From Halofilum ochraceum (GTDB lineage: Bacteria; Pseudomonadota; Gammaproteobacteria; XJ16; Halofilaceae): DNA of 64,000 nucleotides. Made by a program: the position numbers and the translations under genes. Within the stretch, counting starts at the first letter, position 1; each line of letters begins with the position of its first letter. The notes beneath the pieces are model-generated. The model had not been told where the DNA came from. It was given only the letters and a program-made list of their open reading frames with translations, and searched no databases. Positions 706 to 29,933 of this stretch are shown here, in pieces. The DNA is taken from contig NZ_LVEG02000001.1 in NCBI RefSeq assembly GCF_001614315.2, positions 496,001 through 560,000 on the forward strand, written 5' to 3'.

Positions 706-777
706 CGACTCTCTCCTCCCGTTGCAACTTTCGCAACGAGTCGCGAAAACGCCTATTTTCCCCATTTTTCGGGTGGC

Positions 778-1016
778 TTCCGCAGTTGCGCGCCAGCAGG
801 GCTGCCGCACTTGCGGGGCAAAACCGGCCCGGGATCGCCCATCAAACCCCGTTCCTCCGATCCACTGCCGCAGTTGCGGGGCAAAATCGGCCTTTGACCG
901 ACCACAAAGCGGGGGTCAGCAGGATTGCTGCCGCAGTTGCGTGTCAAAACCGCCCCGGGATAGCCATCAAATCGCCGCTTTTAGGGTCCACTGCCGCAGC
1001 TGCGTGCCACCACCCG
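778..1016. repeat. Tandem degenerate 63-bp repeat (about 3.5 units)
   Basis: The heptamer TGCCGCA begins at bases 803, 866, 929 and 992, an exact 63-base period. The first 25 or so bases of each unit are best conserved (TGCCGCAgTTGCGgGgCAAAA type) and the remainder drifts. A related partial copy, CCGCAGTTGCGCGCC, sits at 780. Because 63 is a multiple of three, two frames read as repeat peptides (CRSCGAK-like on plus, RNCGS-like on minus), but neither has a convincing start or ribosome-binding site. Regular spacing between a replication or mobilisation region and its neighbours suggests iterons or a protein-binding array; this is inference. Confidence 0.75.
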
Positions 1017-1208
1017 TGGATATCACCTGAGCCGCATCTGCAGGTCAACGTTGTTCCGCCGTCGACGGAAGCGCGGATGTGACACCGCGCTCGGAGGCAT
1101 CCACATGGGGTGGGTAGGGCGATAATCAGAAGATAGAACGATCGTTGGAGACCGATCCGGCGGGACTTTCCAGGCGGTGGCTGGCGCCCCCGTCCGCGCA
1201 GCAAGGTA

Positions 1209-1757
1209 TTACATGTGATCCACACCGGCCGCTGCAGCCATTCCGATCACTGTCGTCACACCGCCCAGAATGAACGCGAACCCGAGCAACGCCAGGACCT
1301 TTCCCGAGACCACTCGCAGCAGATCGGTGAGGCGAGCGTCGATGATCCGCTCGATGGATTGGTCCAAACAGGCGTCGATGGCCTTCTCCATCGCTGTACG
1401 GTCCCGCTCCTCGTTCTCCCGGAGAACTGTCAATATGGAGCGACGAAATCGCTTGGTCGTGTGATCCAATTCTTCTCTCATGTGTCCGTGCCATCCCTGC
1501 AGAAGGTCGCCGAACTCGGCCATTTCCGCGCGCACGCGGCGCGAGTCGGTCCTCGCATCCTGGTGGAAGTCGGCAAGAACGAGCGCAAGGCCCCACACGA
1601 TATCGTCATCAGGAACATCCCGCGCATGCTGAGCGAGAATAGCTCGACGGGGCGGACTCAGCTGCTCCAGAACCTCATCGCGCAAGGATGCCGGACCCCG
1701 CCGCGTTGCCTCGGCTGCGGTTTCACTGTCGCGGTCGCCCATGTCGTTATGGTTCAT
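1209..1757 (-). CDS. StbC/TraM-like mobilisation accessory protein with C-terminal membrane segment
   Basis: A 182-residue protein whose ATG (1757) overlaps the stop of the upstream ParA-like gene as ATGA, implying translational coupling. The N-terminal half is charged and helical; residues about 95-150 look like an amphipathic or coiled-coil stretch rich in Arg and Glu; the last 25 residues form one hydrophobic segment (ALLGFAFILGGVTTVIGM). It is the third gene of a minus-strand set (2983 to 1209) that resembles stbABC of R388-type plasmids or traKLM of RP4-type plasmids in order, sizes and the central ATPase. I do not recognise its sequence family directly, so the name rests on context. Confidence 0.55.
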   Translation of the reverse strand: MNHNDMGDRDSETAAEATRRGPASLRDEVLEQLSPPRRAILAQHARDVPDDDIVWGLALVLADFHQDARTDSRRVRAEMAEFGDLLQGWHGHMREELDHTTKRFRRSILTVLRENEERDRTAMEKAIDACLDQSIERIIDARLTDLLRVVSGKVLALLGFAFILGGVTTVIGMAAAAGVDHM

Positions 1758-3709: not shown

Positions 3710-4246
3710 CGGGGCGCGGCCACTGCGATGAATGGGGTGATCGGCGGCTGGTGCAGACCCTTGGGGCGACGGAGGGTGGTGAGCACGGGTCGCCGAGGTT
3801 GCGCGCAGCGGGCGTGTGGCGAGCACGTGTTATGGGGCTACCGTTGGCCGGTTCCGCGGACCCGGACGGTCGAATGGGCGACGGGTGAAAAATGGTGGAT
3901 TTCGGGGGCATTCGATTCTCATTGCGGGAGTCCTCTGTATAAGTACTCCGATTAAATGGAAGTATTCCTCTTGTTTGTGTCGAACAACGAACTGGGCATA
4001 ACAAAACCGGAGGATTTTCCGCCATTCATGAGAACCGGGTGTGTCGTCGCAACGATGATCAATTGTTAGATACACAGTCGCACCGATCTTGCACGCAGTC
4101 GGCGTGTCGTGCTCACCTTGGGACATCGGCGGTGACTATGCATCGCCCGATAGGTGAGGGGCGCGTGGATCGGCGTATGCCATGTCCGTGTGACCGATGG
4201 CCATCGACGGCGATGGCCAAGGACGCAACCTTTATCGGAGAACGCG
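3710..4246. other. Gene-poor region upstream of the relaxase
   Basis: No convincing gene. Short frames here are low quality. Around 3970-3988 there is an imperfect inverted repeat (TTGTT / AACAA) and near 4008-4021 a short CGGA/TCCG stem. This is an alternative place for oriT because relaxase genes are often adjacent to it. The ribosome-binding site for the relaxase, GGAG, is at 4237-4240. Confidence 0.35.
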
Positions 4247-5248
4247 ATGATTAGCCTGAAGCACCTGAAGGCCACCGATTCATATCGGATCAGTCGGTAC
4301 GCGGAACATGCCCACTACATTACTCGGCAGGGCAATCCGGTCGGGTACTATGTGGAAATGGCGGGCGGACCCGGTCGCGCGCCGAGCTGGTGGCACGGGT
4401 GCGGAGCGGACACCCTCGGCCTCGAGGGCCATGTGCAGCCGGATCATCTTGCACGGATACTGGCCGCCGAGGGGTTCGGCCGCCGGTCGCACCCACGGCG
4501 GCGCGTGGCGACGGATCTAACGATCTCCGCGCCGAAGTCGGTTTCGATCGCCGCGTTGGCGCTGGGTGACGACGAGCTTCTGGAGGGCATGTGTTCTGCG
4601 GCGATGGCCGCGGTCGATCATGTCGAGCGGACATGCGTGATGACGCGCAAGGGAAAGGGGGGTCGCACACGGAGCACAACGGGGAATCTCATCGCCGCGT
4701 GTTTCCTGCATGAGGACGCGCGCCCGGTGGACGGCATAGCGGACCCACAGGCGCACATCCATGTGCTGATAGGGAACCTGACTCAGCGGCCTGACGGCGG
4801 CTGGCGGGCGGTGGACTTGCACTTCGGCACAGGAAACTGTCGCTGGTATCGGGCGGACACAATATTCCACCAGAAGCTGGCGGAAACCGCGCGGAGCCTC
4901 GGATACGGCACCGTGGAGACGCTGCACGGATTCGAACTGGCTGGTCTGCCGCGGGAGATCAGAGAGCGGTTTTCCTATCGGCGCCGCCAAGTGGATGCGG
5001 CGTTGGTCGAGCGAGGAAGGACGCGGAAGCAGTCCCGGGCTGGCGAGCGGATCAACGCGTGCCTTGCGAGCCGGGAATCCAAAACGCAGCTGTCGCAGCC
5101 CGAGCAGCGAGAAGAGTGGCATCGACGCGCGGTGGCCGCGGACCTCGATCTGGAGTCGCTCCGAGGGGGGAGGGTGACGAGGACTTCGCTTCGCAAAACC
5201 ACGAGACTCGCTACAGATAGATCGGATTGGCGACCGCTGCTCGGCTGA
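4247..5248 (+). CDS. MobF (TrwC-type) relaxase, nicking domain only
   Basis: A 333-residue protein matching the N-terminal HUH relaxase domain of TrwC/TraI. Visible features are the motif DLTISAPKSVS at 90-100, the metal-binding histidine triad H155, H170 and H172 (AHIHVLIGN), and N-terminal tyrosines Y13, Y18 and Y24 that could serve as catalytic residues. The ATG at 4247 has GGAG 6 bases upstream. TrwC-type relaxases are usually around 900-1000 residues or more and carry a C-terminal SF1 helicase; here the frame stops soon after the nicking domain, and about 290 bases of gene-free DNA follow. It may still nick in trans or be a remnant. The helicase could be supplied by a resident conjugative element. 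Confidence 0.8.
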   Translation: MISLKHLKATDSYRISRYAEHAHYITRQGNPVGYYVEMAGGPGRAPSWWHGCGADTLGLEGHVQPDHLARILAAEGFGRRSHPRRRVATDLTISAPKSVSIAALALGDDELLEGMCSAAMAAVDHVERTCVMTRKGKGGRTRSTTGNLIAACFLHEDARPVDGIADPQAHIHVLIGNLTQRPDGGWRAVDLHFGTGNCRWYRADTIFHQKLAETARSLGYGTVETLHGFELAGLPREIRERFSYRRRQVDAALVERGRTRKQSRAGERINACLASRESKTQLSQPEQREEWHRRAVAADLDLESLRGGRVTRTSLRKTTRLATDRSDWRPLLG

Positions 5249-5542: not shown

Positions 5543-5695
5543 ATGAACAGCACCCCACTTTCGCCCGGCCGAAAAATCGGCCGCGCGCATGCCATCGCCG
5601 CCGATGATCCATTGTTGCTGACTTGCCAGATGGCACGGGGCACGACATTTCGCGTGGGCGAATACGCGCTCGCGCGATTGGAGGGCGGACGATGA
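5543..5695 (+). CDS. Small ORF coupled to the primase/helicase-like gene
   Basis: A 50-codon frame starting at ATG 5543, with GGAG at 5530-5533, and ending in an ATGA overlap with the start of the large downstream gene at 5692. The product begins MNSTPLSPGRKIG and contains a Leu/Val-rich centre (PLLLTCQMARGTTFRVGEYA), possibly a small strand-rich fold. Tight coupling to a replication-like gene suggests a small regulatory or accessory protein, as is common in integrative elements. No family is recognised; the overlap and ribosome-binding site are the evidence that it is real. Confidence 0.5.
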   Translation: MNSTPLSPGRKIGRAHAIAADDPLLLTCQMARGTTFRVGEYALARLEGGR

Positions 5696-8484
5696 GTGCG
5701 GTCCATCTTCCTATCGACCTGTACGACGACACCGCCGTGGCGGATGGCGACGCGGGCAACGGGGCCGCGACAGCATATCCTGCCACCCTGTCCGTGCTGT
5801 CCGCTGCAAAACCAAAACGTCTGGCCAAGCAATTCGCCCTCGACAGTAACGGCGAACTGATCAAACGGCCCGGCGGCGAACTCGTGCGAGGCCACTACGA
5901 ACGCCGCGCGGTGGATGGCGTCGACGGCTTGCGCGAAACACTGGCAAGCCTGCAACCGAATCAAGCGCTTTGCTTCGGAGCCGCTGCCCCGGAATCCTCG
6001 CCGATTGCGTCACGTCAGGCGGCGGGCGAGGGCGACATCACCCGCACGCGCGACTGTTTCGACTGGCCCGTCGGTCCCGGCTTCCTCTTGCTGGACTACG
6101 ATCCGCCACCGGGCGGCGAGCCGATGAACCCGAGCACGCTGTACGCCAGGGTTAAGGGCGCGTGTCTCCCCGTCGCCGACGCGCCAATGGTAGCGGCGGC
6201 CAGTAGTTCGACGTATATCTACAACGGCGATACGGACGAGTGCATGAAGGGCGCGGGCGGGCTTCGCTTGTGGATCCATGTCGCCGATGCGCGGGACATC
6301 CCAAGAGCCGGGCAAGTGCTGTTCGATCGGCTATGGCTGGCCGGGCACGGGTACTACGCGGTGAGCAAGTCTGGTGCGTTACTCGAACGCGGGTTGGTTG
6401 ACGCCGCAGTGTGGCAACCCGAACGCCTCGACTTTGCCGCAGGGGCATCGTGCGTCGCACCGCTCGAACAACGCCGCGCGGAACCACTGGTGGTGAACGC
6501 TGACGCCAATCCTCTGGACACGACCACGGCGCTGCCCGACCTGACCGACGCCGAGCGTGAGCGCCTGGCCGAGCTAAAGGCGGAAGCGCGCGAAGCGGTC
6601 TCCGGCGAACAACACGCCGCGCGGCAAGCGTGGATCGATGACCGGCTCGCCGCGTTCGAGGAAAGCGCCGCCGATGATCTGGCCGCGCTGGACGACAACG
6701 GACGCGAACAGCGGATCGAACAGGCGCGGCAATCGTTCGTCGCGGCTGTCATGAATCGCAAGCTATTCGCCGACTTCACGCTGACGCATAGCAGTGGCCG
6801 CACCGTCACCGTCGGCGCGATTCTGGACAAACCCGAACAGTGGCACGGCGAACGCTTCGCCGACCCGCTCGAACCGGATTACGGCAACGATGCCCGGATT
6901 GCCTGGGCGAACCTTCGCAGCGGCGGAAAGCCGTATATCTACAGCCACGCGCACGGCGGACAACGGTTTGCGCTGGAGCGTGCCGCATCCACGATCTGCA
7001 TCGCTGCCGGTGAGATGCCGCGCATGGTCCAACAGGCCGACGAACTTATGCGCCACGCGGGCGAGGTGTATCAGCGCGAGGGTAGGCTGGTGCGGCTTGT
7101 TGATGGCGGCGTGTTTCCCGTATTCGGCCCTTGGCTGTCCAACCACCTGGAGTCCATCGCGCAATGGTTGCGCTTCGACAAACGGGCGAAGGATTGGCTG
7201 GCGAGCGATGCACCCGGCAACCTGCCCGCACGCATCCTGCACAACCGAGGCGCATGGACCGTTCCCGAGCTGTCCAGCGTCGTGCCCGCTCCGCTGCTGC
7301 GTCGGGATGGCTCCATGCTGGATAATCCCGGATACGATCCGGGAACCGGCGTGCTGTTGCTCGCCGACCACCCCGACGGCTGGCCGCCCGTACCGCACAA
7401 CCCCAGCCGTGAACAGGTACGCGCCGCTCTGCGAACGTTGTGGGAGCCGTTCGAGCATTTCCCGTTCGTGGACGCGCTATCGCGCAGCATCGCACTGGCG
7501 GCGTGCCTGACCGCCGTACAGCGACCCATGATCGGGACTGCGCCCGCATTCGCCGCCAACAGCTACAAGGCGGGCACCGGAAAAGGAAAGCTGGCGAAGG
7601 CTGTTGCGTGGCTGTCCGGGCACGAGCCGAGCGAATCGCCCTGGAGTACTGAATCCGAAGAACAGCGCAAACGGATCATGGCCAAGCTCATGACCGCGCC
7701 GCCGTCGCTGTTGATCGACAATGTAAACGGCCCGCTCGAATCGGATACGTTGTGCGCGGTGCTCACGTCCACGACGTATGAAGATCGCCGCCTCGGCGCA
7801 TCCGAGAACGTGAGCGTCCCCACGCGCGTACTCATTCAGGCCACCGGCAACAATATCCAGGTGACGGGCGACCTTGCCCGCCGTGTGCTGGTGAGCACGA
7901 TTGATCACGGCGTGGAATCCCCCGAGCGCCTTGCGTTTCCCTTCGATCCCGTTGCGCGTGTGCGCGAACGCTGGCTGCACTACCGGGCGGCGGCGCTGAC
8001 AATTCTGCGCGGATTCGTGGCCGCAGGTTGCCCGCAGGGGGCCCCCGGTTGCATGGGATCGTTTGAGGAATGGGATGCCGTTATCCGTCAATGCGTCGTG
8101 TGGCTTCGCGATAAACGGTTGGCTGACTTCAACCTTGCCGATCCGGCGGATGCCGTGGACGCGAACTACGCCGACGAGCCGGAGACGATCAAGCTGCGCG
8201 GCCTGATCACCGGGTGGGATGGCGTGATCGGTGATCGACCCGTCAAACTCCGCGAGTTGGTGGACGAAGCGCAACCTGCGGCCAATATCGGAGCGCCCAG
8301 CGAGTACCGTGCAACCCTCGCTAATGCCCTGGACGAGATCGCAGGCGAGCGGGGGACGATCAACCCGCGTCGGCTTGGCCGCTGGATCGGACGCTATGCC
8401 GGGTGCGTCGTGGACGGACGGCGAATCGTCAAGGATGGCGTGAGTGCGGGTGACACCCGCTGGCGCACGGAGGCTGCGCGATGA
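5692..8484 (+). CDS. Primase/helicase-like replication protein of the element
   Basis: A 930-residue protein; ATG at 5692 with GGAGGG about 7 bases upstream. Residues 130-240 carry an archaeo-eukaryotic primase-like pattern: LLLDYD with D135 and D137, then LWIHVAD with H196, then LVDAAV with D237. A charged Ala/Glu/Arg-rich coiled-coil-like linker follows (282-352). The C-terminal half has a P-loop, AGTGKGKL, at about 627-634 and SLLIDN (D676) as a Walker B-like strand; the usual second acidic residue is Asn. This order fits prim-pol plus helicase proteins that replicate satellites and integrative elements. Domain identity is inferred from motifs. It is sandwiched by 4-base overlaps with small ORFs on both sides. 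Confidence 0.65.
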   Translation: MSAVHLPIDLYDDTAVADGDAGNGAATAYPATLSVLSAAKPKRLAKQFALDSNGELIKRPGGELVRGHYERRAVDGVDGLRETLASLQPNQALCFGAAAPESSPIASRQAAGEGDITRTRDCFDWPVGPGFLLLDYDPPPGGEPMNPSTLYARVKGACLPVADAPMVAAASSSTYIYNGDTDECMKGAGGLRLWIHVADARDIPRAGQVLFDRLWLAGHGYYAVSKSGALLERGLVDAAVWQPERLDFAAGASCVAPLEQRRAEPLVVNADANPLDTTTALPDLTDAERERLAELKAEAREAVSGEQHAARQAWIDDRLAAFEESAADDLAALDDNGREQRIEQARQSFVAAVMNRKLFADFTLTHSSGRTVTVGAILDKPEQWHGERFADPLEPDYGNDARIAWANLRSGGKPYIYSHAHGGQRFALERAASTICIAAGEMPRMVQQADELMRHAGEVYQREGRLVRLVDGGVFPVFGPWLSNHLESIAQWLRFDKRAKDWLASDAPGNLPARILHNRGAWTVPELSSVVPAPLLRRDGSMLDNPGYDPGTGVLLLADHPDGWPPVPHNPSREQVRAALRTLWEPFEHFPFVDALSRSIALAACLTAVQRPMIGTAPAFAANSYKAGTGKGKLAKAVAWLSGHEPSESPWSTESEEQRKRIMAKLMTAPPSLLIDNVNGPLESDTLCAVLTSTTYEDRRLGASENVSVPTRVLIQATGNNIQVTGDLARRVLVSTIDHGVESPERLAFPFDPVARVRERWLHYRAAALTILRGFVAAGCPQGAPGCMGSFEEWDAVIRQCVVWLRDKRLADFNLADPADAVDANYADEPETIKLRGLITGWDGVIGDRPVKLRELVDEAQPAANIGAPSEYRATLANALDEIAGERGTINPRRLGRWIGRYAGCVVDGRRIVKDGVSAGDTRWRTEAAR

Positions 8485-8681
8485 AATTGGTGTGTTTGGT
8501 GTGTTTTGGTGGGATCTTTCCTCTCAGTTACCCGGAAGTGTCAATTGAGACTTTGGGGGTAGTAATGGGAAAGACCCCACCAAAACACACCAAACACACC
8601 AACGGGCGTTTACAAGGACGCCTCGGACATTGGGCAGGCGGAATCTCCGTCAACCCCGATGCGGTGCGGCGTATGCGCTGA
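8481..8681 (+). CDS. 66-residue ORF spanning a large inverted repeat
   Basis: The ATG at 8481 overlaps the stop of the primase-like gene (ATGA). The product begins MKLVCLVCFGG and later reads GKTPPKHTKHTN; both stretches are encoded by the arms of one inverted repeat (8487-8521 and 8568-8602). The opposite strand over the right arm also encodes LVCLVCFGG. The tail is basic (GRLQGRLGHWAGG). The ORF may be a genuine small protein whose codons were shaped by the repeat, or the repeat may be a DNA or RNA element that happens to be open. I do not recognise the protein. Confidence 0.4.
   Translation: MKLVCLVCFGGIFPLSYPEVSIETLGVVMGKTPPKHTKHTNGRLQGRLGHWAGGISVNPDAVRRMR
8487..8602. repeat. 35-bp inverted repeat, 34/35 matched, 46-base loop
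   Basis: Left arm 8487-8521 and right arm 8568-8602 are reverse complements with one mismatch. Each arm itself repeats a TTGGTGTG-like word (TTGGTGTGTTTGGTGTG). It starts three bases past the stop codon of the primase/helicase-like gene. As RNA it would form a very stable stem; as DNA it could be a replication or recombination site. The function is unknown. Confidence 0.9.
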
Positions 8682-8801: not shown

Positions 8802-9688
8802 CATGGTGGACAGCGAAAAGAACCGCCGCGCCCGTCGCCGACTGGTTCGAGGCGGCGGAGGCCGCCGACGGTGAAGAAGATGCGGCGTTCGGCGAGGTGC
8901 GCGGCGACGAGCTGCCCGAGTGGGCCGCGGACCGCGCGCAGCGCCTGGAGCGGATCCGCGCGGCGAAAGCCGCGTTCGAGGCCGAGGCGCAGGCGGCGGC
9001 CGACGCCGAAGCATCCCGGCAAGGCGAAGCCGACGACGATGATGATGATCCCGATCCACCGTCTGTGCCACCACGCCACCACGCCATCACGATGACGGGC
9101 CCCCGCCGGTGGCGCGCAGCGCAACTTCACCGATCCGGAAAGTCGGGTTGTGCTCACCCGCTCAGGCTGGGTGCAGGCCTACAACGCGCAGATCGCCGTT
9201 GACGCCGACCACCAGATCATCATCGCGCAGACGCCTACCCCTTGCGCCGCCGACATCAATCATCTCGCGCCGATGGTGGCGGCGATCGAACGCGACGCGG
9301 GCCATGTCCCCGATGAGCTGTCGGCCGACGCCGGCTACTGCAGCGAGGCGAATCTCGATATCTGAACCGCAATGCGATCCGGGGCTATGTGGCGACCCGC
9401 CGCGGCCACCATGATCAGCCCACCGCCACCGGTGATCGCTCGCCCGACCCTGACAGCTTCACCGGACAGATGGAGACCAGGCCGCGCCGGGCTGGCTGGC
9501 GCAGCCGATATCGGCTGCGCAAGATCTTCCCTCAACCCGTGATCGGGAAGATCAAGCACGCCCGCGCGTTCCGACAGTTGCTGTTGCGGAGTCTTGAGCA
9601 GGCGCGCGGGGAATGGAGCCTGATGCGCATCGCCCACAACCTGCTGAAGCTAGCGACGGCGCCGGCCTTAAGGCCGGCGGCATCATGA
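8802..9688 (+). pseudogene. IS1182-family transposase remnant
   Basis: Pieces of an IS1182-type DDE transposase are spread over several frames. The first piece (about 8810-9080) reads WFEAAEAADGEEDAAFGEV and a basic RAQRLERIRAAKAAFEAEAQ helix. The second (about 9110-9365) has the conserved VQAYNAQIAVDADHQIIIA and LSADAGYCSEANL. The third (9389-9688) has YRLRKIFPQPVIGKIKHARA and the C-terminal GEWSLMRIAHNLLKLA. The N-terminal region is missing and at least two frameshifts separate the pieces, so it cannot make a working transposase. It marks the left edge of the defence island, and a related C-terminal fragment lies at 25.3-25.6 kb on the opposite strand. Confidence 0.85.
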
Positions 9689-9960
9689 TCCCGTATATAT
9701 CCGATCAATGAACGCCCGCGACCGAAGCATCGTGTGCGCGGTTACTCGGAGGGCCTCCTGGTTCTGGATCGTCTTCTCCGGCGAAACGCCTGCGCCTGCC
9801 AGTGTCCGAACAGATACAGGGCTGGGCTGAACACGACCACAGACTAAAGTCTTCTTGAGGGTTCGCGGATCGGAACCGCAAGCGCGCCGAGCACTTGGCA
9901 ATGTATGTGTTGGTCAGACGGAACAACAGGGCGTCAGAGCTGGATGGTATCCTCGTGAGT

Positions 9961-12900
9961 ATGGAGCACAAATCTACTGCAGCGTCGACGCCCAAGCGCG
10001 CCGGAGGAAGCGCAACCGAGGCCGGTATGGACTGGCATGCTGCGGTCGCTACCTGGTTCGCGGTTCACATCCTAGTGCGCATGCCGGTAGGTGGACGTTT
10101 CGGTATCAGCGATCAGCCCATACCCGAATCTGTCCGCCTTGAGACTGGCGCTGGCCTCGACGATATCGAGCTGACGCAAGAGGACGACAGCGGTCTCCAA
10201 ATTCAATGCAAAACCCGCGCGAACATTTCCTCCAGTAAGAGCGCTCCGCTAACTGGAACTGTCGGTCAGCTTGCGAGGTGGGTCGCTGACGAGAAGGCTG
10301 GGCCAGGCCTGCCGAATCCGACTCGCAATGCCGCACTGTTGGCGGTGCGTGCTGACTCCCCACGCAGTCTCGACAACCTTGAGTCTGGATGCCGTGCGTT
10401 CGATTTCGGTGGGAGCTGGGCGGTCACGTGTTCGCAGCGCAATCAGGCGGAGCGGAGCGCGCTCAAAGCATTTGAGGTAATCGCAACCCGGACATGGGCC
10501 GCGCATCGAGGGGATGAACCCGACTCCGAAGATCTCGTCGATTTGGCGCGTATTTTCCGTATCGCGCGCTTTACCATGGTCGAGGGAGAAAGCGATTGGC
10601 GCGAAGTCTCTCGGCTGCTGGGTCGTCATTTGTTTGGAGGTGAGGCAGACGGCGAAGCACCGCTCCGTGATCTGAAGGAAATCATGCGCGGCATGATCAG
10701 TAGTGGCGCGCCTGCTGATCGTCTCGGATTGCTCCGCGCGTTGCGCCAACGGGGACATCAGGATGTCGGAGCGCCCCGTTATGAGACAGATATAACAAAA
10801 CTGCGGGAAGTAACCGAGGACCACCTACATCGACTTGCCGCTCACGGAAGCCTGCCGCTGGGCGCTGGCGTAAATATAGAGCGCGATAGTGACGGGCCGC
10901 TGCTTGAGGCGATGCGGGCTGGTTCGCTTCTGGTGATCGGCGAACCTGGAGCCGGCAAGACTGGCGCACTAGTGCGCGCCGCGCGGGCCATCGCGGATGC
11001 TGGCGAAACCGTAATCTTTCTGTCGGTCGATCGTTTCGATGGTGTCAGGACAGGCGCCGAGCTCGCGTCTGAGCTCGAGCTCACACACCGGCTGGTCGAC
11101 TCGCTGGGCGCTATGCCTGGTGCAGGCCCCAAGACGCTTATCATCGATGCTCTCGACGCCGCTCGCGGCGGACCGTCTGAAACGGTATTCGCTGCGCTCA
11201 TTGAGGATGTGCGGGATCGGCTTTCTGACGAATGGATCGTCGTAGCGTCGATTCGTACCTTCGATCTCAAGAACGGTCGCCGGTTCCGCCAAGCATTCTC
11301 TGGTCCCCCTGCTGATATCGATTTCGCCGAGTCCGGGCTGAGTAAGGTGCGCCATTTCCTTGTTCCGACTCTGAGCGAAAACGACCTTGCCGCAGCGGAG
11401 AAGGCATCACCGGAACTGGGCACCCTGTTGGAGTCGGCCCCAGACGCACTCGTCGACCTGCTGCGCAATATTTTCAATCTGTCGCTGGCCGCGGATCTCC
11501 TGGCCGATGGAATCAATCCGGCGGAATTCCGCGCGATCCGCACTCAGGCAGGATTGGTAGATGCCTACGAAGATGCGCGCCTGAACACGACGCAGCTACA
11601 GGAGGCAGCGAGGGCGGCGGCGGCCACAATGGTAAGCCGAGGGCGGCTATCGGTTCGCAAGGTCGTGATCGGACATGCTGCGCTCGATGATGTCATTCAA
11701 ACGGGCCTCCTCGTAGAATTCGGCGATTTTGTAACATTCGCGCACAACTTGCTGTTCGATCATATTGCTGGGCGTTTCTACCTCGAATGCGATGACGCTG
11801 AAGCGCTGTTGTTTCAATTAAGTGGCGACAGCCCAACCGCACTCCTGCTCGCTCCGGCACTCCGTTTCGCAGTGGAGCGACTTTGGCGTTTCGACGGTGC
11901 GGGGCGGCCGATGAGTTGGCAGCTGGCAGCGGGTGCGTTCTCGGCCACGAATGTCGACCCGGTACTAAGCAACGTTGCGCTGCGCGTCGTGGTCGAGAAT
12001 ACCGAAGGTGTCAGCGATATTTCGGGGTTGATTGCGCGCGTCAATGACTGTTCGGATGAAACGTACTTGGAGGTACTCCTTGGACGTCTCGCACGTTTCG
12101 CGGCGATGGACATCGAGGCCGCAGGGGGGATCACGCCGGGGCCGGCGACCGCGTGGATCCGAGTTGCCGAAGCTCTCGTGGCCACGGGCAACCGAACGTT
12201 GCTTCATCCTGCGCTGGTTCTGCTTCACCCGATTTTCGAGCATGACGACCTTGAAGGAGATGATCTCCTCCATACGTTTGGCCGGGCGTCGCGCGCACTC
12301 CTTGAATCCTCATGGGCAGCCTCGCCACCGCTGGCGTCGATCAGCGATACAGCCATCCGTTTTGTTGGCAAGAGCTTCGTCTCGGATCCCCCTGCGTCGC
12401 GCGCGCTTCTGGATCGCATCTTGCGCGAACCCCATTTCTCCGAGCATGCGGATCAGGAGGCCGTTTGGCTTGCCGAGCAAATCCTGCCGATCACTCGCGC
12501 TGATCCTGAGTTCACCGTTGAAATCTATGCCGCACTGTACGGACAGACGATCACCGATGACAGTACCTCTTGGTTGGGGCGGCAGCCGAGCCGGATCCTA
12601 CCGCTTTCCTCGAACCGAAGGCAGGATTTTGAGCACTGCCGTTGGCACCTTGGTAGGGCCATTGGCGATGTCCTAGCGATCTCGCCCGAGCATGGAACAC
12701 GTGCGCTTATCGATGCACTGATCGGCCGAACCGCGAACCGCGACTACAGCGATAATCCTAAGCCCAGCCAAGTGGACTTGGGCACTTCGATTATCGAGTT
12801 GCGTGGTGGTGATGTGGAATTCAATGCCTGGGACGAGGTGGACGAAGGGGTACCTTCTCGCGACGATGATCTGCTAGCTCAGTACGCCCGTTTCCTTCGC

Positions 12901-13722
12901 AGCAGCGACTTCGCGAAGTTTTCCGCAAGCGTGCGTGCGGCGTCACGCGAGTACGCCACACCATTGGTCTGGGCTCGAATTTTCGGGGTCGGCAGCGAAC
13001 GTAGTGATGAAATGGCCGATCTGCTCTGGCCGCTAATTGAACGTCCAGACTTTTTCGCGAACCAAGGCACACTACGCGACGCGGTTCGGTTCGTAGTGGC
13101 GGCTTGGCCTTCGCGAGACGGCGCAGCACAACTCCACTTCGAGAGGATGGCGGTCGATGAGGCGCGTTTTTCTGACGATGATGAACTGCGCCGTTGGTAT
13201 CACGTTCTAGGCCGAATTCTTGCCCCGATTCCGGAAAGTGCGCTCCAGACTGAAAAAACGCGGGATTTGCGTCGCTTTCTCGAGTCCGAGGGGCTGTTGA
13301 CGGAGAATGAGCCAATATATCGTATGACCAGCGGGTGGAGTGGTCGCGTGGATTTTGAGCGCGAGGACTTGCGCCGCGCGGGCGTCGACGTGGACGCCAG
13401 CCCCACTCGAGACGTGCTTGATGCGTCAGACGCCCTATACGCAACTGTCGAGCGGACGTGCTCGACAAGTTCGGCGCAAGATCTCGCGCCGTTATGGAGA
13501 GAGGCCGAAGCGCTTCTCTCGTTGATCGATGCAAATCCGGGTCTGCACGATCGGATCGATCGCGCCGCTTGGGGACATCTGGCAAACGCCGTCGAACGGA
13601 TTGCGTCAAGCCCGAATTATGAACCAGGAAGGGAGGGCTTGCCCGACTTAGCGGCAATTTTCGCGTTGCTAGAACGCTTGTCTGCAAGCCAGTATCCCGA
13701 GCCGGACGAGGAAGATGGATGA
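9961..13722 (+). CDS. Nuclease-like/STAND NTPase, candidate anti-phage sensor-effector
   Basis: A 1253-residue protein. Residues 20-90 contain ETGAGLDDIE and LQIQCKTR, a D...QxK arrangement like the PD-(D/E)xK nuclease heads of Cap4- and Mrr-type proteins. The NTPase core has Walker A GEPGAGKT at 327-334, Walker B TLIIDALDA at 392-400, and a VASIRTFDL sensor-like strand near 430, the layout of NACHT/STAND ATPases. About 700 residues of helical, repeat-like sequence follow, as in sensor domains. Such proteins detect phage factors and activate the nuclease. I prefer ATG 9961 because the alternatives at 9901 (ATG) and 9895 (TTG) lack a ribosome-binding site and precede the conserved region. The stop overlaps the next ORF by 4 bases. 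The nuclease assignment is inference. Confidence 0.7.
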   Translation: MEHKSTAASTPKRAGGSATEAGMDWHAAVATWFAVHILVRMPVGGRFGISDQPIPESVRLETGAGLDDIELTQEDDSGLQIQCKTRANISSSKSAPLTGTVGQLARWVADEKAGPGLPNPTRNAALLAVRADSPRSLDNLESGCRAFDFGGSWAVTCSQRNQAERSALKAFEVIATRTWAAHRGDEPDSEDLVDLARIFRIARFTMVEGESDWREVSRLLGRHLFGGEADGEAPLRDLKEIMRGMISSGAPADRLGLLRALRQRGHQDVGAPRYETDITKLREVTEDHLHRLAAHGSLPLGAGVNIERDSDGPLLEAMRAGSLLVIGEPGAGKTGALVRAARAIADAGETVIFLSVDRFDGVRTGAELASELELTHRLVDSLGAMPGAGPKTLIIDALDAARGGPSETVFAALIEDVRDRLSDEWIVVASIRTFDLKNGRRFRQAFSGPPADIDFAESGLSKVRHFLVPTLSENDLAAAEKASPELGTLLESAPDALVDLLRNIFNLSLAADLLADGINPAEFRAIRTQAGLVDAYEDARLNTTQLQEAARAAAATMVSRGRLSVRKVVIGHAALDDVIQTGLLVEFGDFVTFAHNLLFDHIAGRFYLECDDAEALLFQLSGDSPTALLLAPALRFAVERLWRFDGAGRPMSWQLAAGAFSATNVDPVLSNVALRVVVENTEGVSDISGLIARVNDCSDETYLEVLLGRLARFAAMDIEAAGGITPGPATAWIRVAEALVATGNRTLLHPALVLLHPIFEHDDLEGDDLLHTFGRASRALLESSWAASPPLASISDTAIRFVGKSFVSDPPASRALLDRILREPHFSEHADQEAVWLAEQILPITRADPEFTVEIYAALYGQTITDDSTSWLGRQPSRILPLSSNRRQDFEHCRWHLGRAIGDVLAISPEHGTRALIDALIGRTANRDYSDNPKPSQVDLGTSIIELRGGDVEFNAWDEVDEGVPSRDDDLLAQYARFLRSSDFAKFSASVRAASREYATPLVWARIFGVGSERSDEMADLLWPLIERPDFFANQGTLRDAVRFVVAAWPSRDGAAQLHFERMAVDEARFSDDDELRRWYHVLGRILAPIPESALQTEKTRDLRRFLESEGLLTENEPIYRMTSGWSGRVDFEREDLRRAGVDVDASPTRDVLDASDALYATVERTCSTSSAQDLAPLWREAEALLSLIDANPGLHDRIDRAAWGHLANAVERIASSPNYEPGREGLPDLAAIFALLERLSASQYPEPDEEDG

Positions 13723-14888
13723 GCATCAGTTGGGGGAATTGGGCCGTGCGTGTGTACGCCACTAAATCCTGGGTGGCGCTTGCTCAGCGCTTTGCCGTCG
13801 ACCACCCGATGATCATTGAGCATCTGGAGATCGCGCTCAAGGATCCGGTGCCGGCAGTTCGGCTTCAGGTGGCCGAGAACCTACAGGTCCTGTATGCAGC
13901 CGCTCCTGAGCGCATGTGGAAGTTGGCCGAACAAATCGCCACGCATGAGCCGGATCCCCGGATCTTAGCCTTCTGCCTCAGTCGCTCGATTCGGCGGTTT
14001 AGTTACCGCGAGCCAGAGCGGTGCGAGGTCGTGTTGAGCACGGTCAAGGAACGCCTCGACAACAACATTCCGGTCGATGAAGAGGCACGCTACCTTGTCC
14101 TAGAGTCCCTCGGTGGATGGACCGCGCAGCTGTATGTCTGCCAGGGCCGAGGACTAACGTGGACGTGGCTTCAAGAATGGGCCACCAATCCTGGGTGCTA
14201 CCGAGATTTATTGGACTCGTTTACGTCGTCACTGCGCAAGGCGATGTTCGACCGATATCGAGTTGGATCAGACGCCCAATCGGAGGCGGTAAGCAACCGC
14301 GCACAAGAGGGACTCGCGCTGATCCTCACGCACGCAAGCCGGATATTGACCGAGGCACATGGTGTTCTCAAGTCGGATGCACCTGAGACCGAAAAGGAGG
14401 AAGCGACCGAACGGTACATCGCGGCGGAAAAGGTCATCCATCATGCGATGAACCAGATATATTTCGGTTCCGGTGCTAATGCAAGCGATCCGTCGGATGA
14501 AGCGGGCTTGGGCAGTACGACCGCGATGGCGCGTTTCCTCGATGATTATGCGGATATTCTTGAACTGCTGGGCACTACTCGTGAGCCAATTACGCTTCAC
14601 TATCTCATTGAACTGTACGAGTTCGTGATTCCCGGTGACCCGGTTCGCGTGTTCGACGCGGTCTACGCGTTGCTTCTCGGACGTGGTGAAGAGGAGGGGT
14701 ATCAGTATGAAAGTCTTGGACAGAAGAAGGTCGTGGGTATGGTGGAGCGTTTCATAGCGGATCATCGCGGCATGTTTGAGGACGAAGCCCGACGGGCCAA
14801 ACTGGTTGCGATCCTTCGGCTTTTCGCCGACGTAGGATGGCCGGATTCGTTGAGGCTTCTTTACGATCTACCGGACTTGCTCCGCTAA
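13719..14888 (+). CDS. Helical-repeat (HEAT-like) partner protein
   Basis: A 389-residue protein whose ATG overlaps the upstream stop (ATGA). Residues 10-130 contain helical pairs typical of HEAT/ARM solenoids, for example DPVPAVRLQVAENLQVLYA and RILAFCLSRSIRRF. The remainder is helical with long charged helices (ETEKEEATERYIAAEKVIHH). No enzyme motif is visible. It either forms the distal sensor part of the STAND protein, supplied as a separate subunit, or is the C-terminus of one ancestral protein split by a frameshift at the junction. The 4-base overlap favours translational coupling. Target recognition is the most likely job, by analogy with STAND sensors. Confidence 0.65.
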   Translation: MSISWGNWAVRVYATKSWVALAQRFAVDHPMIIEHLEIALKDPVPAVRLQVAENLQVLYAAAPERMWKLAEQIATHEPDPRILAFCLSRSIRRFSYREPERCEVVLSTVKERLDNNIPVDEEARYLVLESLGGWTAQLYVCQGRGLTWTWLQEWATNPGCYRDLLDSFTSSLRKAMFDRYRVGSDAQSEAVSNRAQEGLALILTHASRILTEAHGVLKSDAPETEKEEATERYIAAEKVIHHAMNQIYFGSGANASDPSDEAGLGSTTAMARFLDDYADILELLGTTREPITLHYLIELYEFVIPGDPVRVFDAVYALLLGRGEEEGYQYESLGQKKVVGMVERFIADHRGMFEDEARRAKLVAILRLFADVGWPDSLRLLYDLPDLLR

Positions 14889-16582: not shown

Positions 16583-17278
16583 CTAGAGACCTTCCACGTC
16601 CATACCGTGGACAGCGAGCCATTTTCTCCGCTGCAGGAAGTCCGGTAGGACGCGTTCGATGCGCCGCCAAAATGCCGGTGTGTGATGGGGTACGTGCAGG
16701 TGGGCCAACTCGTGGACCGCTACGTACTCGGCGATTGGTCGGGGGAGTAGGATGGTCTTCCAGTGGAAGTATAGCCAGCCACCCTTGCCGCACGAGCCCC
16801 AGCGGTAGCCTAGGTCCTGTACACGGACACCAGCGGGGTCGGCCTCCATCCTTCGAGCATGCTCCCGGACTTTTCGGTCTAGCCAGTCGCGACCGCGCGC
16901 GCAGTACCAGAAGATGAACTGGTTACGGCCGTCGTGTACCAGATCGCGACGCAGGCGAAACCGGCCGTGGATCAGTTTGAGCGGCTCGTCCTGGTCATCG
17001 ACGAGTTTCAGGCGGTAGCTGCGGCCGAGATAGAGAAACCCCTCGCCATCGACGAAGGTCTTGCGGGGGACGGGTCGGCGTAGCTCGGCCTTTTCGGTGA
17101 GCTTCTTGTAGATCCAGAAGCGCTTCTCGCGGACGAACGCGCACATTGTCGCCTCGTCGACGCTGGCCGGTGCGGCGATGACCAGCTCGCCTTCGCGGTC
17201 TACCGTGAGCCCCAAGGTGCGCCGTCGCTGGCTGCGGCGCACCTCAAGGGTCAAGTCATCGACGTGCAGAACGCTCAT
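16583..17278 (-). CDS. YgjP/SprT-type zinc metallopeptidase (M48-like, DUF45)
   Basis: A 231-residue protein with the zinc motif HELAH at 189-193 followed by histidines at 198-199, plus the family-typical YRWGSCG at 158-164 and an N-terminal beta-rich region. These are the hallmarks of YgjP-like putative metal-dependent hydrolases. Its ATG overlaps the hsdR stop by 4 bases, so it is the last gene of the hsdM-hsdS-hsdR operon. YgjP-like genes are repeatedly found next to type I restriction systems, but their contribution is not established; regulating HsdR by proteolysis is a possibility, not a fact. Confidence 0.85.
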   Translation of the reverse strand: MSVLHVDDLTLEVRRSQRRRTLGLTVDREGELVIAAPASVDEATMCAFVREKRFWIYKKLTEKAELRRPVPRKTFVDGEGFLYLGRSYRLKLVDDQDEPLKLIHGRFRLRRDLVHDGRNQFIFWYCARGRDWLDRKVREHARRMEADPAGVRVQDLGYRWGSCGKGGWLYFHWKTILLPRPIAEYVAVHELAHLHVPHHTPAFWRRIERVLPDFLQRRKWLAVHGMDVEGL

Positions 17279-20200
17279 GAGCCCACCAGCTTCTCGTGGT
17301 TTGCCCGGGCCAGCTCCAGGAGTTTGTCCGCGGTGGGCTCAGCCTTGGATTTCGGGATCACCCCGCCGTTGAACAGCTCCTGGAACAGCCGGCTGCGCAG
17401 GCGCTGCTGGTCCGGGATGTGATTCGGCTTCCAGAACTCCGGGATCTGCAGCTCCTCGGTGATGATCGCCACCAGCTCGGCGGTCGTGTCCATGAGTGCC
17501 GCCATGGTGGCCGAATCCGGGGTCTCGTCGCCGCAGCGCGTCTCGATGAGTTGCCGGAGGAAGGGTTGGTGGTGTGCGGGCATATCCGGCAGGTCCTCGC
17601 CGTCGACGGTCTCGCCGTCCCGGATCTGGCGAATCAGCGCCTGCATCGCCTCGACCTGAGCGTCCCACTGGCCGTCGAGCTGCTCCAGCAGCTCCTTCAA
17701 GCGTTCGCTCAGCTTGCCGTATTTCACCGGGTCCTCATCCATGTGCTTGCGCACATGGGATCGGACGGCATGTTCCATCTCTGAGGCCTTGGCGCGGTCG
17801 CCGACCTGGCGGCTGACGTGCTGGTCGAACTCGGCGTCGGTGAGCTGTACCGGCGGGATCTTGGGGTCGATGCCGAGCGAGATCACGTAGTCGTCGATGA
17901 GCTTGCGGACCTTGCTGCCGACGTCCTTGCCGATCTCCGGGGTGTCTTTGTAGCGGACGCGGGCGCGTGCATGGATGTGAGCGAGCCGCTTGGCGTCGTC
18001 AACGAACTCCAATCCCTCGGGGCGGGGCAGCACCTCGTCGAGGGACTGGTTGAATTGCTTGAGTTTGACCGTGAACTCAGCGCGCACGCGCTCGTCGGCC
18101 AGTGCCTGCACGGCGTCGTCTACCGCCGAGAGATCATCGACACCTTGGCCGCGCAGCACGTCGATGACACGCAGATGACGGTCGCGAAGAATGGGCAGCT
18201 CGTCCTTGACGCTTTGCAGTGCGCCTTCTACGTCGTCGGCGCTGTAGGCCGCCAGTGCCTCCTTGAGGTGATTGGCCACGCCGTAGTAATCGACCACGAT
18301 GCCGCTTTGCTTGCCATGGCCGGTGCGGTTGACGCGGGCTACCGCCTGCAACAGTTCCGCCTCGCGGATGGGCCGGTCCAGGTACATGACCGCCTCGATG
18401 GGGGCGTCAAAGCCGGTGAGGAGCATGGACTTGACCACCAGGAAGGCGAGCGGGTCCGCCTTGTCCGGGTTGTCGTCGACCAGCGGCTTCTTGAAGCGTT
18501 TGATGTGCTCCTTGACGGCCGTGCCGTCACTCCATTGGGCCCATTCCGGGGGGTCGTTGTGGCTGCCGCTGATCACCGCGGCGAATTCCATCTGAGCCAA
18601 CAGGTCCCGATGGCGCCAGGCCTGCACGGCGGCCTGCACCTGCGGCGGGCGCTGGAGCAGGGCGGTGTCGTTCAGGGCCTTATCGCCGGGGATCAGCGCG
18701 TCGGCCTCGGCAAGTAGGGCATTGCGGGCTGCCTCTAACTCGGCCTGGTAGCGGACCGCGGCGTTGCGGCTGTAGGCGACCACTTGGGCTTTGAAGGCAT
18801 TCGGCAGAATGTGGCGCACATAGTGGCGCAGCATGTCGCCGGCCTTCTCTTCGATGAGCTTGGGTGCCTCGAGGATTTGGCCCTTCGTGGCATATTTCTT
18901 CTTGATCGCCTCCAATTCCTCGGCGGTACGCTCGCGGAAGAGATCCTCAAAGAGCGCATCGAGGCTGGCACCTTCCTTGACTGCTCCCTCGGCGGTGCGG
19001 CCCTCGTAGAGTACGGGCACGGTGGCGCCATCTCGTTCGGACTCCTTAATGGTGTAGCGGTCGATCTCTTTGCCGAAGATGTCATGGGTGCGCTTCTTGT
19101 CGCCCATGATGATCGGCGTGCCGGTGAATCCGATGCGCGCGCAGTTCGGCACTGCGCGAAGGAGGTTCGCGTGCAGGTCACCGGCCTGCGAGCGATGAGC
19201 CTCGTCCACCATGACGAGGATGTTGGGGCTGGCGTTGAGTACCTCGAAGGGTTGTGATGGGCGTGGTGGCGGGTCAGGTTCCGCCGCGTCGCGACCGCTC
19301 CATTCGAGACGCTCGGACCGCTTAGGATATGTGGTGCGCCCCTTGGTGTCCCCTACGCCTTGCGCTTCATCCGCGTTATCCGGCTCGCGATATTTCTGGA
19401 TGGTGGCGAAGACCAGTTCCGGGGCGTCGCGGCGCAGCAACGCCTTCAGACCATGGGTGTTACGGGCGACGCGCACGGTTTCGCCGGATAGGCTCGCGGT
19501 CTCGGAGAGCTGTTCCTGCAGGTCATTGCGGTCGGTAATGACCACTACCTTAAAGCGCCGCAGCGCCGGGTCGGTGCGCATGGCCCGGACAAGAAAGACC
19601 ATTGTCAGGCTCTTGCCGCTGCCCTGCGTGTGCCAGATGATGCCGCCGCGGCGATCCAACTCGCCGTCTTCTGCCCGAGTCGTGCCATGTTTCAGCCGCT
19701 CGCGCGCGGCCGTGACGGCGCGGTACTGCTGGTAGCGGCACGCCACCTTCACGCGCTGGCCGCCCAGGGTCATGAACAGGCAGTAGTGGCGCACGATGTC
19801 CAGCAGGTTCGGGGGAGTGAGTACGCCGGCAACCAGGCGCTGCTGGCTGGAAAGCTGCTCGACGCCCAGCTCGGCGGCCACATCCGCCTCGCTACGCGGT
19901 GTTACGGTCTTCCAGTTGAGGTAATGCGCGAAGGCGGCGCTGATGGTGCCAATGCGGGCGTCGTCAAAGTTTGTGGCAATGCAGAGCTGGTTGGTTTGGA
20001 ACAATGCCGGGGCGCCCTCGTTGTCAGTCACTTCACCATCGGCCTTGCGGCGGTTGGCGTAACGGCGGAGTTGGTCGATGGCCTCGCTCAGACCTTCCGG
20101 TACGGTTCGGCCCTTGCACTCGACTACGGCCAGAGGGATGCCGTTCACTAGCAGTACCAGGTCGGGGATGATGTGGCCGTTGCCGGTGTCGTGGCCCGGC

Positions 20201-20619: not shown

Positions 20620-20634
20620 GGGTGCGTTCCTGAA

Positions 20635-24358: not shown

Positions 24359-24637
24359 TGGGGATCTTGGCGGTCCTTGTAAATAAAATTTCCCGCGCGG
24401 CGGGGCGAGGTGGCGCCATTCTATGCGACCGGGAGGGTGGTTGTAACCGAACGAGGAGGGGCGCCGTATGGTTTTCGTCACTCTCGTTGCAGATCCCGAG
24501 GGCGTGTAGCGAGGCCGCGCGCCCCAGGGACGGTTCCTCAACGGTTTGGTCCCGCCCGCCCTCCAACGAGATGGGACTGGGCAGTCAGCTGGTTCCCCGA
24601 TGAACACGTTAGTGGCTCGTTTTGCTAGGCTCTCCCA

Positions 24638-27735: not shown

Positions 27736-28608
27736 CTAGAATGGCAGGTCGGAATCGTCCAAGCGAGGCAATGCCTCGGGATGGCCCTCACGCTGTAGGT
27801 TGCGCCGAACCTGTTTTCTCACAGTATCCTCGTCGGTCTGCCGATCCACCGGAAGATCCAGCGCCACATTTGCCACCGTTGCCAAGACGGGGAACGGAAT
27901 CTCCATTCCGACGCGGACGAACTTCTCGTAAAGTTGGCAGTTGAAATAGATAACACGGGCGTTCGGTCCTGTCTGGCGAATGAATTTGCTCGAAGTCAGC
28001 CCGCCCCGCCCCCAGTAGTCGTCGTCCTGTGCCCAAAGACACAGGTCATAGAGCGTTTCCGATAGATGGGAGTGCGGGTAGTCCCATGGCAGTTTGTACA
28101 GCCCATCCGGAGTCGCGACGTAAGCGACCGGAATGTCGCCGCCACCGGGCTCTGAGTTCACGAACGACTGGGCCGAGAGTACATGCTCGCCGATTTTCCC
28201 CTCTGCGTTGTCGTCCTCTGCATCGACTTCCGTCGCACCGTCCCACGCACAATCGAATCGGGTATCGTTCAGCAGATTGATTAACGCGTCAGCATGGTGC
28301 CGCACACTTTCGAGATACTGTGTGCGTTTTTTCGGTGGCATATTGCCCGGCTTACCGGGCATCCGCATCGCCTGTTCCACCATCAAGACAAAGCTCACCG
28401 GGCTGCCGCCCTGGTAGCGGTGCAACTGGTTACGGATGCTCTCATACCATGCCCAAACCTCCCGCATCCGCTCATCGGTTGCGAGCCGTCTGTACAGCGT
28501 GACCTTCCTTTCCGGGAACTTGTGGGTAATTCTATCGAGCCATTCCGACAGATCGGCCGGTGTCCAAGCTGGGTAGGATTCTGTGGTGTGCTGGCGTGAG
28601 TCGGCCAT
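27736..28608 (-). CDS. Hypothetical protein coupled to the integrase
   Basis: A 290-residue protein starting at the ATG that shares one base with the integrase stop (TGATG at 28610-28606), so translation is probably coupled. The N-terminal half is helical (YPAWTPADLSEWLDRITHKF; QYLESVRHHADALINLLNDT). The centre has a beta-rich segment (GDIPVAYVATPDGLYKLPWD), and the C-terminus is acidic (LPRLDDSDLPF). I do not recognise a family or catalytic motif. Genes in this position in tRNA-integrated islands are frequently element-specific and of unknown role. Confidence 0.7.
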   Translation of the reverse strand: MADSRQHTTESYPAWTPADLSEWLDRITHKFPERKVTLYRRLATDERMREVWAWYESIRNQLHRYQGGSPVSFVLMVEQAMRMPGKPGNMPPKKRTQYLESVRHHADALINLLNDTRFDCAWDGATEVDAEDDNAEGKIGEHVLSAQSFVNSEPGGGDIPVAYVATPDGLYKLPWDYPHSHLSETLYDLCLWAQDDDYWGRGGLTSSKFIRQTGPNARVIYFNCQLYEKFVRVGMEIPFPVLATVANVALDLPVDRQTDEDTVRKQVRRNLQREGHPEALPRLDDSDLPF

Positions 28609-29723
28609 CAGAGCATCTCCACGTCCGCCAGCCGATCCCGCGCCGACTCGGCTACCAGGTGGCCGTAGTGCTTTTGAATCATGGCGAGGCTGGTGCCGGT
28701 CAGGCGAGCCACGTCCAGCGTGGACATACCGGATCGCAGGGCCTCCGTGATCCACGAATGCCGCAGCGTGTACAGCACCGTGCCCGAGGGTAGTTCCGCC
28801 TCGGCGCGAGCGTCCCGCATCAGGTGGTCCCAATCCGACCGCTTCCACGGCTTGCCATCATCCTGCGTCAGAAGATAGGCGCTTGGATGCTTCCCCTTGG
28901 AGACTCGGTTAAACAATGCAAGCGCGGACGGGGACAGCGGAACGGAACGCGATCCCGTCTTGCCGTTGAATGTGATGGTGCCGGTGCGTCCCTCGAAATC
29001 CGAGCGCCGGAGTGTCGCAAGCTCGCCGGGGCGAGCGCCGGTCAGCATCGCGGCTTCGACCAGATCGCGGAATGCACCGTCGCAGGCTTTCAGCAGAGCC
29101 CGCCGCTGTTTGAGGTCGAGGTAGATACTGCGGCGCTTGTCGGCGTTCGAGTGCGGCTTGACGGCTTTCCATCGCTCGGCGACGGCGGGATTTACGCGCC
29201 GATGGCGGACCGCCAGATTCAGGGCCGCGCGTAGGGTATTCAGGTATCGATTCTGACTCGACTTGCCGCCGGGAAGATCGTTGCGCCACGTCTTGAGTTG
29301 CGTCGTCTTGATCTTCTCCACGACAACCTTGCCGATGGCGTTGTCATAGACCGTCCGCCGGAAGCGTCCGTCAGCGTCAGCGGCCGTGCCCGTGCGCCCC
29401 TCGGCTTTCAGGTCTTCGACGTACTCCCGGCAGGCTTGCGCCACGGTCAGGGGGGCATTGTGTACGTCGGCCTCGAATCCCGCGAACCATTCCTCGGCGG
29501 TGCGCTTGGCCGCGTGGTAGTCGAAGCGGTCCCCGGCCTGGCCGAGCGAGCGATACCGCTGTTTTCCGTCGTCGTCGCGCAGGCGGGCAACCCATGTGCA
29601 TGTCCCGTCGGAGCGTTTGCGGACGCCGATGTATCTGCCCTCGGCCAGCGGCGGTCCCCAATACGGTTCGCGGCGCGGTGTCAGGGCATTGCGGACGCTG
29701 ACTTTGTGGACCTCATGGGACAC
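28608..29723 (-). CDS. int: Tyrosine recombinase/integrase
   Basis: A 371-residue integrase. The N-terminal arm- and core-binding domain (about 85-190) precedes the catalytic domain with R231 (TGARPGE), K255 (NGKTGS), R321 in YTLRHSW and the nucleophile Y353 (KHYGHL). The usual box II His is a tyrosine (Y318) and the second His position is Thr344, substitutions seen in several phage-type integrases, so activity is not ruled out. It sits 128 bases from the tRNA-Glu fragment, the expected attachment site, and is followed by an overlapping gene and an AlpA-type excisionase. It should catalyse insertion into and excision from the tRNA-Glu 3' end. Confidence 0.95.
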   Translation of the reverse strand: MSHEVHKVSVRNALTPRREPYWGPPLAEGRYIGVRKRSDGTCTWVARLRDDDGKQRYRSLGQAGDRFDYHAAKRTAEEWFAGFEADVHNAPLTVAQACREYVEDLKAEGRTGTAADADGRFRRTVYDNAIGKVVVEKIKTTQLKTWRNDLPGGKSSQNRYLNTLRAALNLAVRHRRVNPAVAERWKAVKPHSNADKRRSIYLDLKQRRALLKACDGAFRDLVEAAMLTGARPGELATLRRSDFEGRTGTITFNGKTGSRSVPLSPSALALFNRVSKGKHPSAYLLTQDDGKPWKRSDWDHLMRDARAEAELPSGTVLYTLRHSWITEALRSGMSTLDVARLTGTSLAMIQKHYGHLVAESARDRLADVEML

Positions 29724-29851: not shown

Positions 29852-29897
29852 CCCTTTCACGGCAGTAATAGGGGTTCGAATCCCCTTGGGGACGCCA
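29852..29897 (+). other. tRNA-Glu(UUC) 3' fragment, element attachment site (attR-like)
   Basis: These 46 bases match the 3' part of bacterial tRNA-Glu: the anticodon region CCCTTTCACGGC, then the T-arm GGGGTTCGAATCCCC and the acceptor end GGGGACGCCA. The 5' half of the tRNA (D-arm, start GTCCCC) is absent upstream, so this is a duplicated 3' end left by integration. The chromosome resumes after CCA, as shown by the intrinsic terminator that follows immediately. The intact tRNA-Glu should be at the other end of the element, outside this window. Confidence 0.88.
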
Positions 29898-29904
29898 TAC
29901 AAAT

Positions 29905-29933
29905 AAAGCCCGGCTAGCAGCCGGGCTTTTTTT
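29905..29933 (+). terminator. Intrinsic terminator, originally of tRNA-Glu
   Basis: A strong stem (GCCCGGCT / AGCCGGGC around a short loop) with an A-run before and seven T residues after. It sits 8 bases past the tRNA 3' end, where the terminator of the original tRNA-Glu gene belongs. Confidence 0.9.

Follow-up and report, generated by a model that had tools for sequence, protein, structure and literature searches.

An integrated element with a primase-helicase gene

The window (the whole 64-kb stretch of DNA that was analysed) contains part of an element of about 75 kb integrated in tRNA-Glu(TTC) and carrying 48-bp exact att repeats. The right attachment site lies in the window (Table 1) and the intact tRNA-Glu was found about 75.3 kb to the left of it, beyond the window. 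The element encodes a tyrosine integrase, a relaxase domain and, downstream of a gene for a ParA-like ATPase, a large primase-helicase-like protein whose gene is directly followed by a long palindrome.

Table 1. Features of the element at and around the palindrome, in window positions.
Feature	Position	Strand	Basis or remark
TrwC/MobF-type relaxase domain, same element	4154..5248	+	PF08751, E 1.4e-57; NF041492
Primase-helicase replication protein (predicted), 936 aa (953 aa from alternative start at 5623)	5674..8484	+	PHROGs, AlphaFold2, Foldseek
66-aa ORF, overlaps Rep stop (ATGA) and crosses the palindrome	8481..8681	+	No family match; not general in relatives
Whole palindrome, putative replication origin	8487..8602		116 bp; inverted repeat scan, fold, covariance model R2 match of 95.3 bits
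Left array, three 9-nt units TTGGTGTGT, TTGGTGTGT, TTTGGTGGG, proposed iterons	8487..8513	+	Sequence; 9-nt period general in relatives
Central core, GGAAGTGTCA at 8534-8543 with its imperfect inverted counterpart TGAGACTTT at 8546-8554	8534..8554	+	Alignment A4
Right array, the same three units TTGGTGTGT, TTGGTGTGT, TTTGGTGGG, inverted	8576..8602	-	Sequence
Tyrosine integrase of the element, inside its right end	28608..29723	-	PF00589
Right attachment site, 48 bp identical to the 3' part of tRNA-Glu(TTC)	29852..29899	+	Repeat search

Several other genes and repeats were noted in and around the element. A complete type I restriction-modification set (HsdR, HsdS and HsdM) is carried at 17275-24607 on the minus strand, and at 9895-14888 (plus strand) a 1275-aa ORF with a P-loop-like GEPGAGKT motif and no Pfam match is followed by an overlapping 389-aa ORF, the pair possibly being a two-gene defence-like module. 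Decayed transposase pieces (DDE_Tnp_1) are found at 9109-9700, a few hundred bases past the palindrome, and a small nucleotidyltransferase (NTP_transf_2/Polbeta) of a size like that of MNT antitoxin-like proteins is encoded at 364-810 on the minus strand. Two more strong inverted repeats (29883-29951 and 30096-30177) are located at the element's right end or just beyond it; the former overlaps both the tRNA fragment of the att site and a terminator-like stem plus T-run. To the left of the window, between the att repeats, an RND-type efflux set of AcrB-like pump, HlyD-like adaptor and outer membrane factor is encoded (L092, 3538-9282, minus strand).

The product of the primase-helicase gene had no match in Pfam or NCBIfam. 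Its N-terminal part matched a DNA primase family in PHROGs (E 1.9e-54) and its C-terminal part a PHROG family of unknown function (E 3.4e-92). An AlphaFold2 model, for which the input was the window and related-locus sequences only, was mostly confident across the C-terminal two thirds, and the primase part (the N-terminal third) was poorly modelled. Foldseek matched the model to the SF3-type helicases of the NrS-1 polymerase C-terminal region, mpox E5, the ASFV PrimPol and the SaPI5 primase-helicase PriRep1. In the primase part LLLDYDP and RLDF could be read from alignment A1, which we take to be motifs typical of archaeo-eukaryotic primases (AEP). The primase assignment is thus that of a PHROG match and two motifs in a poorly modelled region, and the helicase fold is backed by Foldseek. 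The secondary structure of the final 60 residues suggests a winged helix, and the predicted product is an AEP-like primase fused to an SF3-like AAA+ helicase and a C-terminal winged helix.

A palindrome built of 9-nt units

An earlier note on this DNA, made from the letters alone, had described a large near-perfect inverted repeat here, and the repeat is real. The outer arms (8487-8521 and 8568-8602) are complementary at 34/35 positions and the symmetry runs on to the centre, so that 8487-8544 and 8545-8602 form a contiguous palindrome with 83% matching overall. A scan for inverted repeats across the window ranked it first, with a score of 35 as compared to 23 for the runner-up and a maximum of 16 in four shuffled windows. 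The repeat had been placed three bases after the primase stop codon; the adjacency holds, with the stop TGA at 8482-8484 and two bases (AA) between stop and palindrome. That both strands encode LVCLVCFGG is also true, as an automatic outcome of an inverted repeat. The earlier note missed that the arms contain 9-nt tandem units, which are arranged head-to-tail and fill the outer 27 nt of each arm. The palindrome is present in one copy in the 3.64-Mb genome, which speaks against a dispersed repeat, a MITE or an insertion sequence remnant, and an Rfam search with it gave no match.

Similar repeats beside homologous helicase genes

Whole genomes, plasmids, phages and viral contigs all contributed homologues, to which a profile (A2) for the C-terminal helicase module was applied; scans of viral contigs with the single protein gave no close relatives. 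The earlier note had taken the absence of a repeat beside close homologues as the observation that would count against it. Behind the closest homologue found (57% identity, from a Xanthomonas MAG, locus L004) there is an inverted repeat in the corresponding position, of different sequence and likewise composed of 9-nt units. A further, separate inverted repeat in this locus (765-833) has perfect 32-bp arms around a 5-nt loop.

In a convenience sample of 50 non-identical loci with a complete helicase module, which is phylogenetically unbalanced, the best inverted repeat within 420 nt downstream scored at least 14 in 35 loci and at least 20 in 24. The corresponding numbers were 6 and 0 among 1000 dinucleotide shuffles and 3 and 0 among 100 in-gene windows. 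A strong inverted repeat was absent in 15 of the 50 loci, five or six of which have a half-module (see below) and the others nothing. The N-terminal part of the proteins varies among the relatives, being AEP-like in the window, annotated as PriCT-2 or primase/polymerase in L026 and L028 and, by reading, apparently Toprim in L010 and L012, which argues that the repeat is tied to the helicase module and not to one type of primase. At L012 the Rep ORF crosses a 45/45 perfect inverted repeat (730-1210, minus strand) and thereby acquires a cysteine-rich C-terminal stretch.

The architecture of these repeats was shared to a larger extent than their sequence. Self-identity of the arms was 0.50 at a lag of 9 nt and 0.44 at a lag of 18 nt as compared to about 0.3 for shuffled arms, and the best lag was 9 or 10 in 31/37 cases. 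The arms differ between elements and the pairing is kept: in a ten-sequence alignment 28 of 43 pairs were changed on both sides, and covariation was 0.393 versus 0.169 in shuffled alignments and at most 0.16 with slid pairings. The centre was AT-rich relative to the gene in 36 of 38 hairpins (p = 5e-11). A frequent core reads roughly CC..ACGCG.GA.AAnTGTCA, followed by an approximate inverted copy TGACAnTTT...GGG, and the motif AAnTGTCA/TGACAnTTT is common to the window and its relatives; the strict 5' core was present in 17/38 hairpins and in 3.6% of background windows. At L042 (3023-3136) the arms are unequal, at least five units of the CAGCAACCC type in one facing two in the other, a lopsidedness that fits iterons better than a stem.

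A covariance model (R2) built from ten regular hairpins was used to scan 519 whole genomes (274 + 245) blind to genes at E <= 0.001. Eleven distinct loci were obtained, three of which had gone into the building of the model, and ten of the 11 adjoin the primase/helicase module studied here. At one locus (L098, genome G136, 1501-1620) the iteron hairpin is upstream, not downstream, of a disrupted primase gene. The only match away from the module (L097, genome G168, 1480-1650) is an unrelated repetitive stretch between genes, with units around AAAATAAACCTGACACCTTTTCC in direct and inverted order.

Five relatives (L008, L009, L027, L033 and L034), and perhaps L035, have only half of the design, i.e. 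9-nt units in tandem where the module ends, followed by AAnTGTC in four of the five and also in L035. No inverted partner of these half-modules was found elsewhere in their loci. From these relatives we infer that the basic unit is probably a one-sided iteron module and that the palindrome consists of two such modules placed head to head.

Comparison with known replication systems

The most closely comparable system is that of the Streptomyces plasmid pWTY27, the RepA of which scored 273.7 bits to the helicase profile A2 and was matched by the window protein with E 2e-25 in tblastn. Replication of pWTY27 is bidirectional and its replication locus requires an adjacent 300-bp region; RepA binds an inverted repeat of about 105 bp containing 8-bp direct repeats, as seen by EMSA and footprinting, with the arms protected and the loop not (PMC3583192). 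The two systems (repAB with iteron/IR2 in pWTY27) are alike in that a long inverted repeat with short direct repeats lies directly behind a helicase-family gene. They differ in that pWTY27 has 8-bp units (GTGGGAAC) in a looser inverted repeat with extra units whereas the window has 9-nt units, in that the primase is a separate gene (repB) in pWTY27 and fused in the window, and in that pWTY27 is an actinobacterial plasmid and the window holds an integrated element.

A second comparison is with plasmid pRN1, where the primase-helicase gene is followed by a 100-nt stem-loop that is essential and functional when moved, and where one stem mutation was tolerated only with pairing restored (PMC4234260); a second study concurs that the stem-loop is essential (PMC3869888). 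A similar stem-loop was reported by the Lipps group in Bordetella phage BIP-1, and the pRN1 origin was described as being without iterons (PMC4234260, PMC3869888). As in these replicons, which have a stem-loop of about 100 nt behind a primase-helicase with a winged helix, the 116 bp of the window palindrome directly follow a gene predicted to be of this kind, and among the window relatives, too, structure is kept while sequence diverges. The pRN1 likeness is one of published description, and since the arms of the window palindrome hold 9-nt tandem units it is a variant outside the strict pRN1 type. The stem-loop copy of Bordetella phage BPP-1 also holds 9-nt units (GTTTGCCTC), with the differences that Bbp29 was not matched by the helicase profile at E 1e-3 and that the inverted repeat is 465 nt from the stop codon.

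The PrimPol of phage NrS-1 (NrSPol) starts DNA synthesis at 5'-TTTGGTTA-3' and 5'-GTG(G/A) (PMC8718748). Its C-terminal helicase-like region (6lrb, 6k9e) matches the window model, and the window arms contain TTTGGTG, which is a resemblance of short motifs only and does not imply a shared primase family. Likewise, SaPI5 PriRep1 (7pds, 7ola) has a helicase fold similar to that of the window model. SaPI origins have iterons flanking an AT-rich stretch next to rep. To our knowledge there is no palindrome of 9-nt units in SaPI-type replicators, the likeness of the origins being one of description.

A candidate origin of replication and its alternatives

The palindrome lies behind a primase-helicase gene, contains inverted arrays of 9-nt units, shares its core with relatives and has similar arrays elsewhere. 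Given these four observations and the results for pWTY27 and pRN1, the window palindrome most likely serves as the origin from which its element replicates, with the neighbouring primase-helicase binding to it, and we estimate the probability of this at roughly 80%. A replication start, one of three functions put forward in the earlier note, is thus well supported, similar repeats following homologous primase/helicase genes and pWTY27 RepA binding one of them. At such an origin Rep would recognise the 9-nt units on either side as iterons through its C-terminal winged helix, helicase rings would assemble and melt the AT-rich centre, and the fused primase would then prime both strands, leading to bidirectional replication of the excised element. 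The palindrome itself would exist because a one-sided module (9-nt iterons and, behind them, AAnTGTC) is present twice, head to head, and it may also extrude as a cruciform. Four observations count against this reading. A strong inverted repeat is missing at 15 of the 50 loci; the element is integrated, and its autonomous replication is a presumption; GC skew in five plasmids (pA32H2, pA17P3, pMNOD06, pMt-1 and pWTY27) gave no origin signal; and arm sequence did not correlate with winged-helix or helicase identity in a Mantel test, unlike the expectation for a protein and its binding site.

Alternatively, the repeat could act as an RNA hairpin in the rep transcript that controls the module by termination, attenuation or transcript stability, as was also proposed in the earlier note. 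The predicted RNA fold is very stable (-84.4 kcal/mol, z = -9.8), the hairpin sits immediately behind the gene on the same strand, and its pairs covary. A selected transcript hairpin should favour G.U on the transcript strand, and no such preference was found among the imperfect stem pairs (69 G.U versus 85 A.C). This lack of strand bias, together with the still more telling relatives that have only a half-module, indicates a DNA site rather than an RNA hairpin. In addition, the sequence after the stem is AACGGGCG with no T-run, as opposed to an intrinsic terminator, Rfam gave no match, the hairpin lies within the Rep ORF at five loci and over its stop at six, and in G136 it is upstream of the gene. 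Control by an RNA hairpin is therefore disfavoured and we regard it as unlikely. The repeat could also be a coding feature, a small overlapping protein that is palindromic by chance. The arms are open in the downstream frame, as had been claimed, and L004 likewise has an open frame there that starts from ATGA; in L011, L012, L037, L039 and L062 the ORF reads on through the hairpin, and 30 stop-free frames were observed over the hairpins as compared to 17.7 in shuffles. This excess may stem from the length of the repeat unit (9 nt), which is divisible by three. Of 38 hairpins, 27 are outside the Rep ORF, 5 inside and 6 across its stop, so the reading frame seems incidental: the coding overlap in which the repeat had been placed exists in the window and is not general. 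The peptide has no family match and coding leaves the pair covariation unexplained. The ORF is probably not a functional protein, and a coding explanation for the palindrome is extremely unlikely.

Two further alternatives accept a DNA site and differ in its function. The Rep-binding site might serve regulation alone, be it autoregulation, copy control or incompatibility, with replication starting at some other place, and in iteron plasmids the arrays often work in control as well as in initiation. However, the palindrome is located behind and not before the gene, and the equivalent region is needed for replication in both pWTY27 and pRN1, which makes an exclusively regulatory role improbable. 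A transfer origin, a recombination site (the third function suggested in the earlier note) or the remnant of a small transposable element would be compatible with the relaxase domain 3.2 kb upstream of the palindrome and with long inverted repeats being common in such sites. Against this, the palindrome is single-copy, the att site at tRNA-Glu is about 21 kb away, comparable repeats occur on plasmids typed as non-mobilizable and beside phage-like genes (L025), and the association goes with the helicase gene. The recombination site thus found no support, and we consider this group of explanations very unlikely. A replication origin remains the preferred reading.

A possible class of mobile-element origins

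The window palindrome is apparently a variant of the pRN1/pWTY27 kind of origin, and a widespread one. A broader proposal, to which we give somewhat less than an even chance, is that it belongs to a class of origins, widespread on bacterial mobile elements and still without a name, that mostly measure 110-200 bp, have inverted 9-nt iteron arrays around an AT-rich AAnTGTCA/TGACAnTTT core and go with a single SF3-type helicase module irrespective of the primase attached. Within the partial literature covered, we found no paper that treats palindromes of 9-nt iterons as a class. Plasmids, phages and integrated elements commonly encode primase-helicase replication proteins, the origins of which are mostly unknown. 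The rule of an inverted repeat of 9-nt units with the core, adjoining the helicase gene, would allow origins to be predicted from sequence, would supply cis-acting parts for mini-replicons in bacteria without vectors, and would make start-site choice and melting by SF3-type replicators testable. If the proposal is true, a spacing of 9, which is below one turn of DNA, would suggest an unusual mode of binding, e.g. to melted or cruciform DNA, and the half-module versions would be one-directional origins. At another locus (L052, 3000-3900) two or three iteron hairpins of differing quality were found in series behind one helicase gene, possibly a duplicated or decaying origin.
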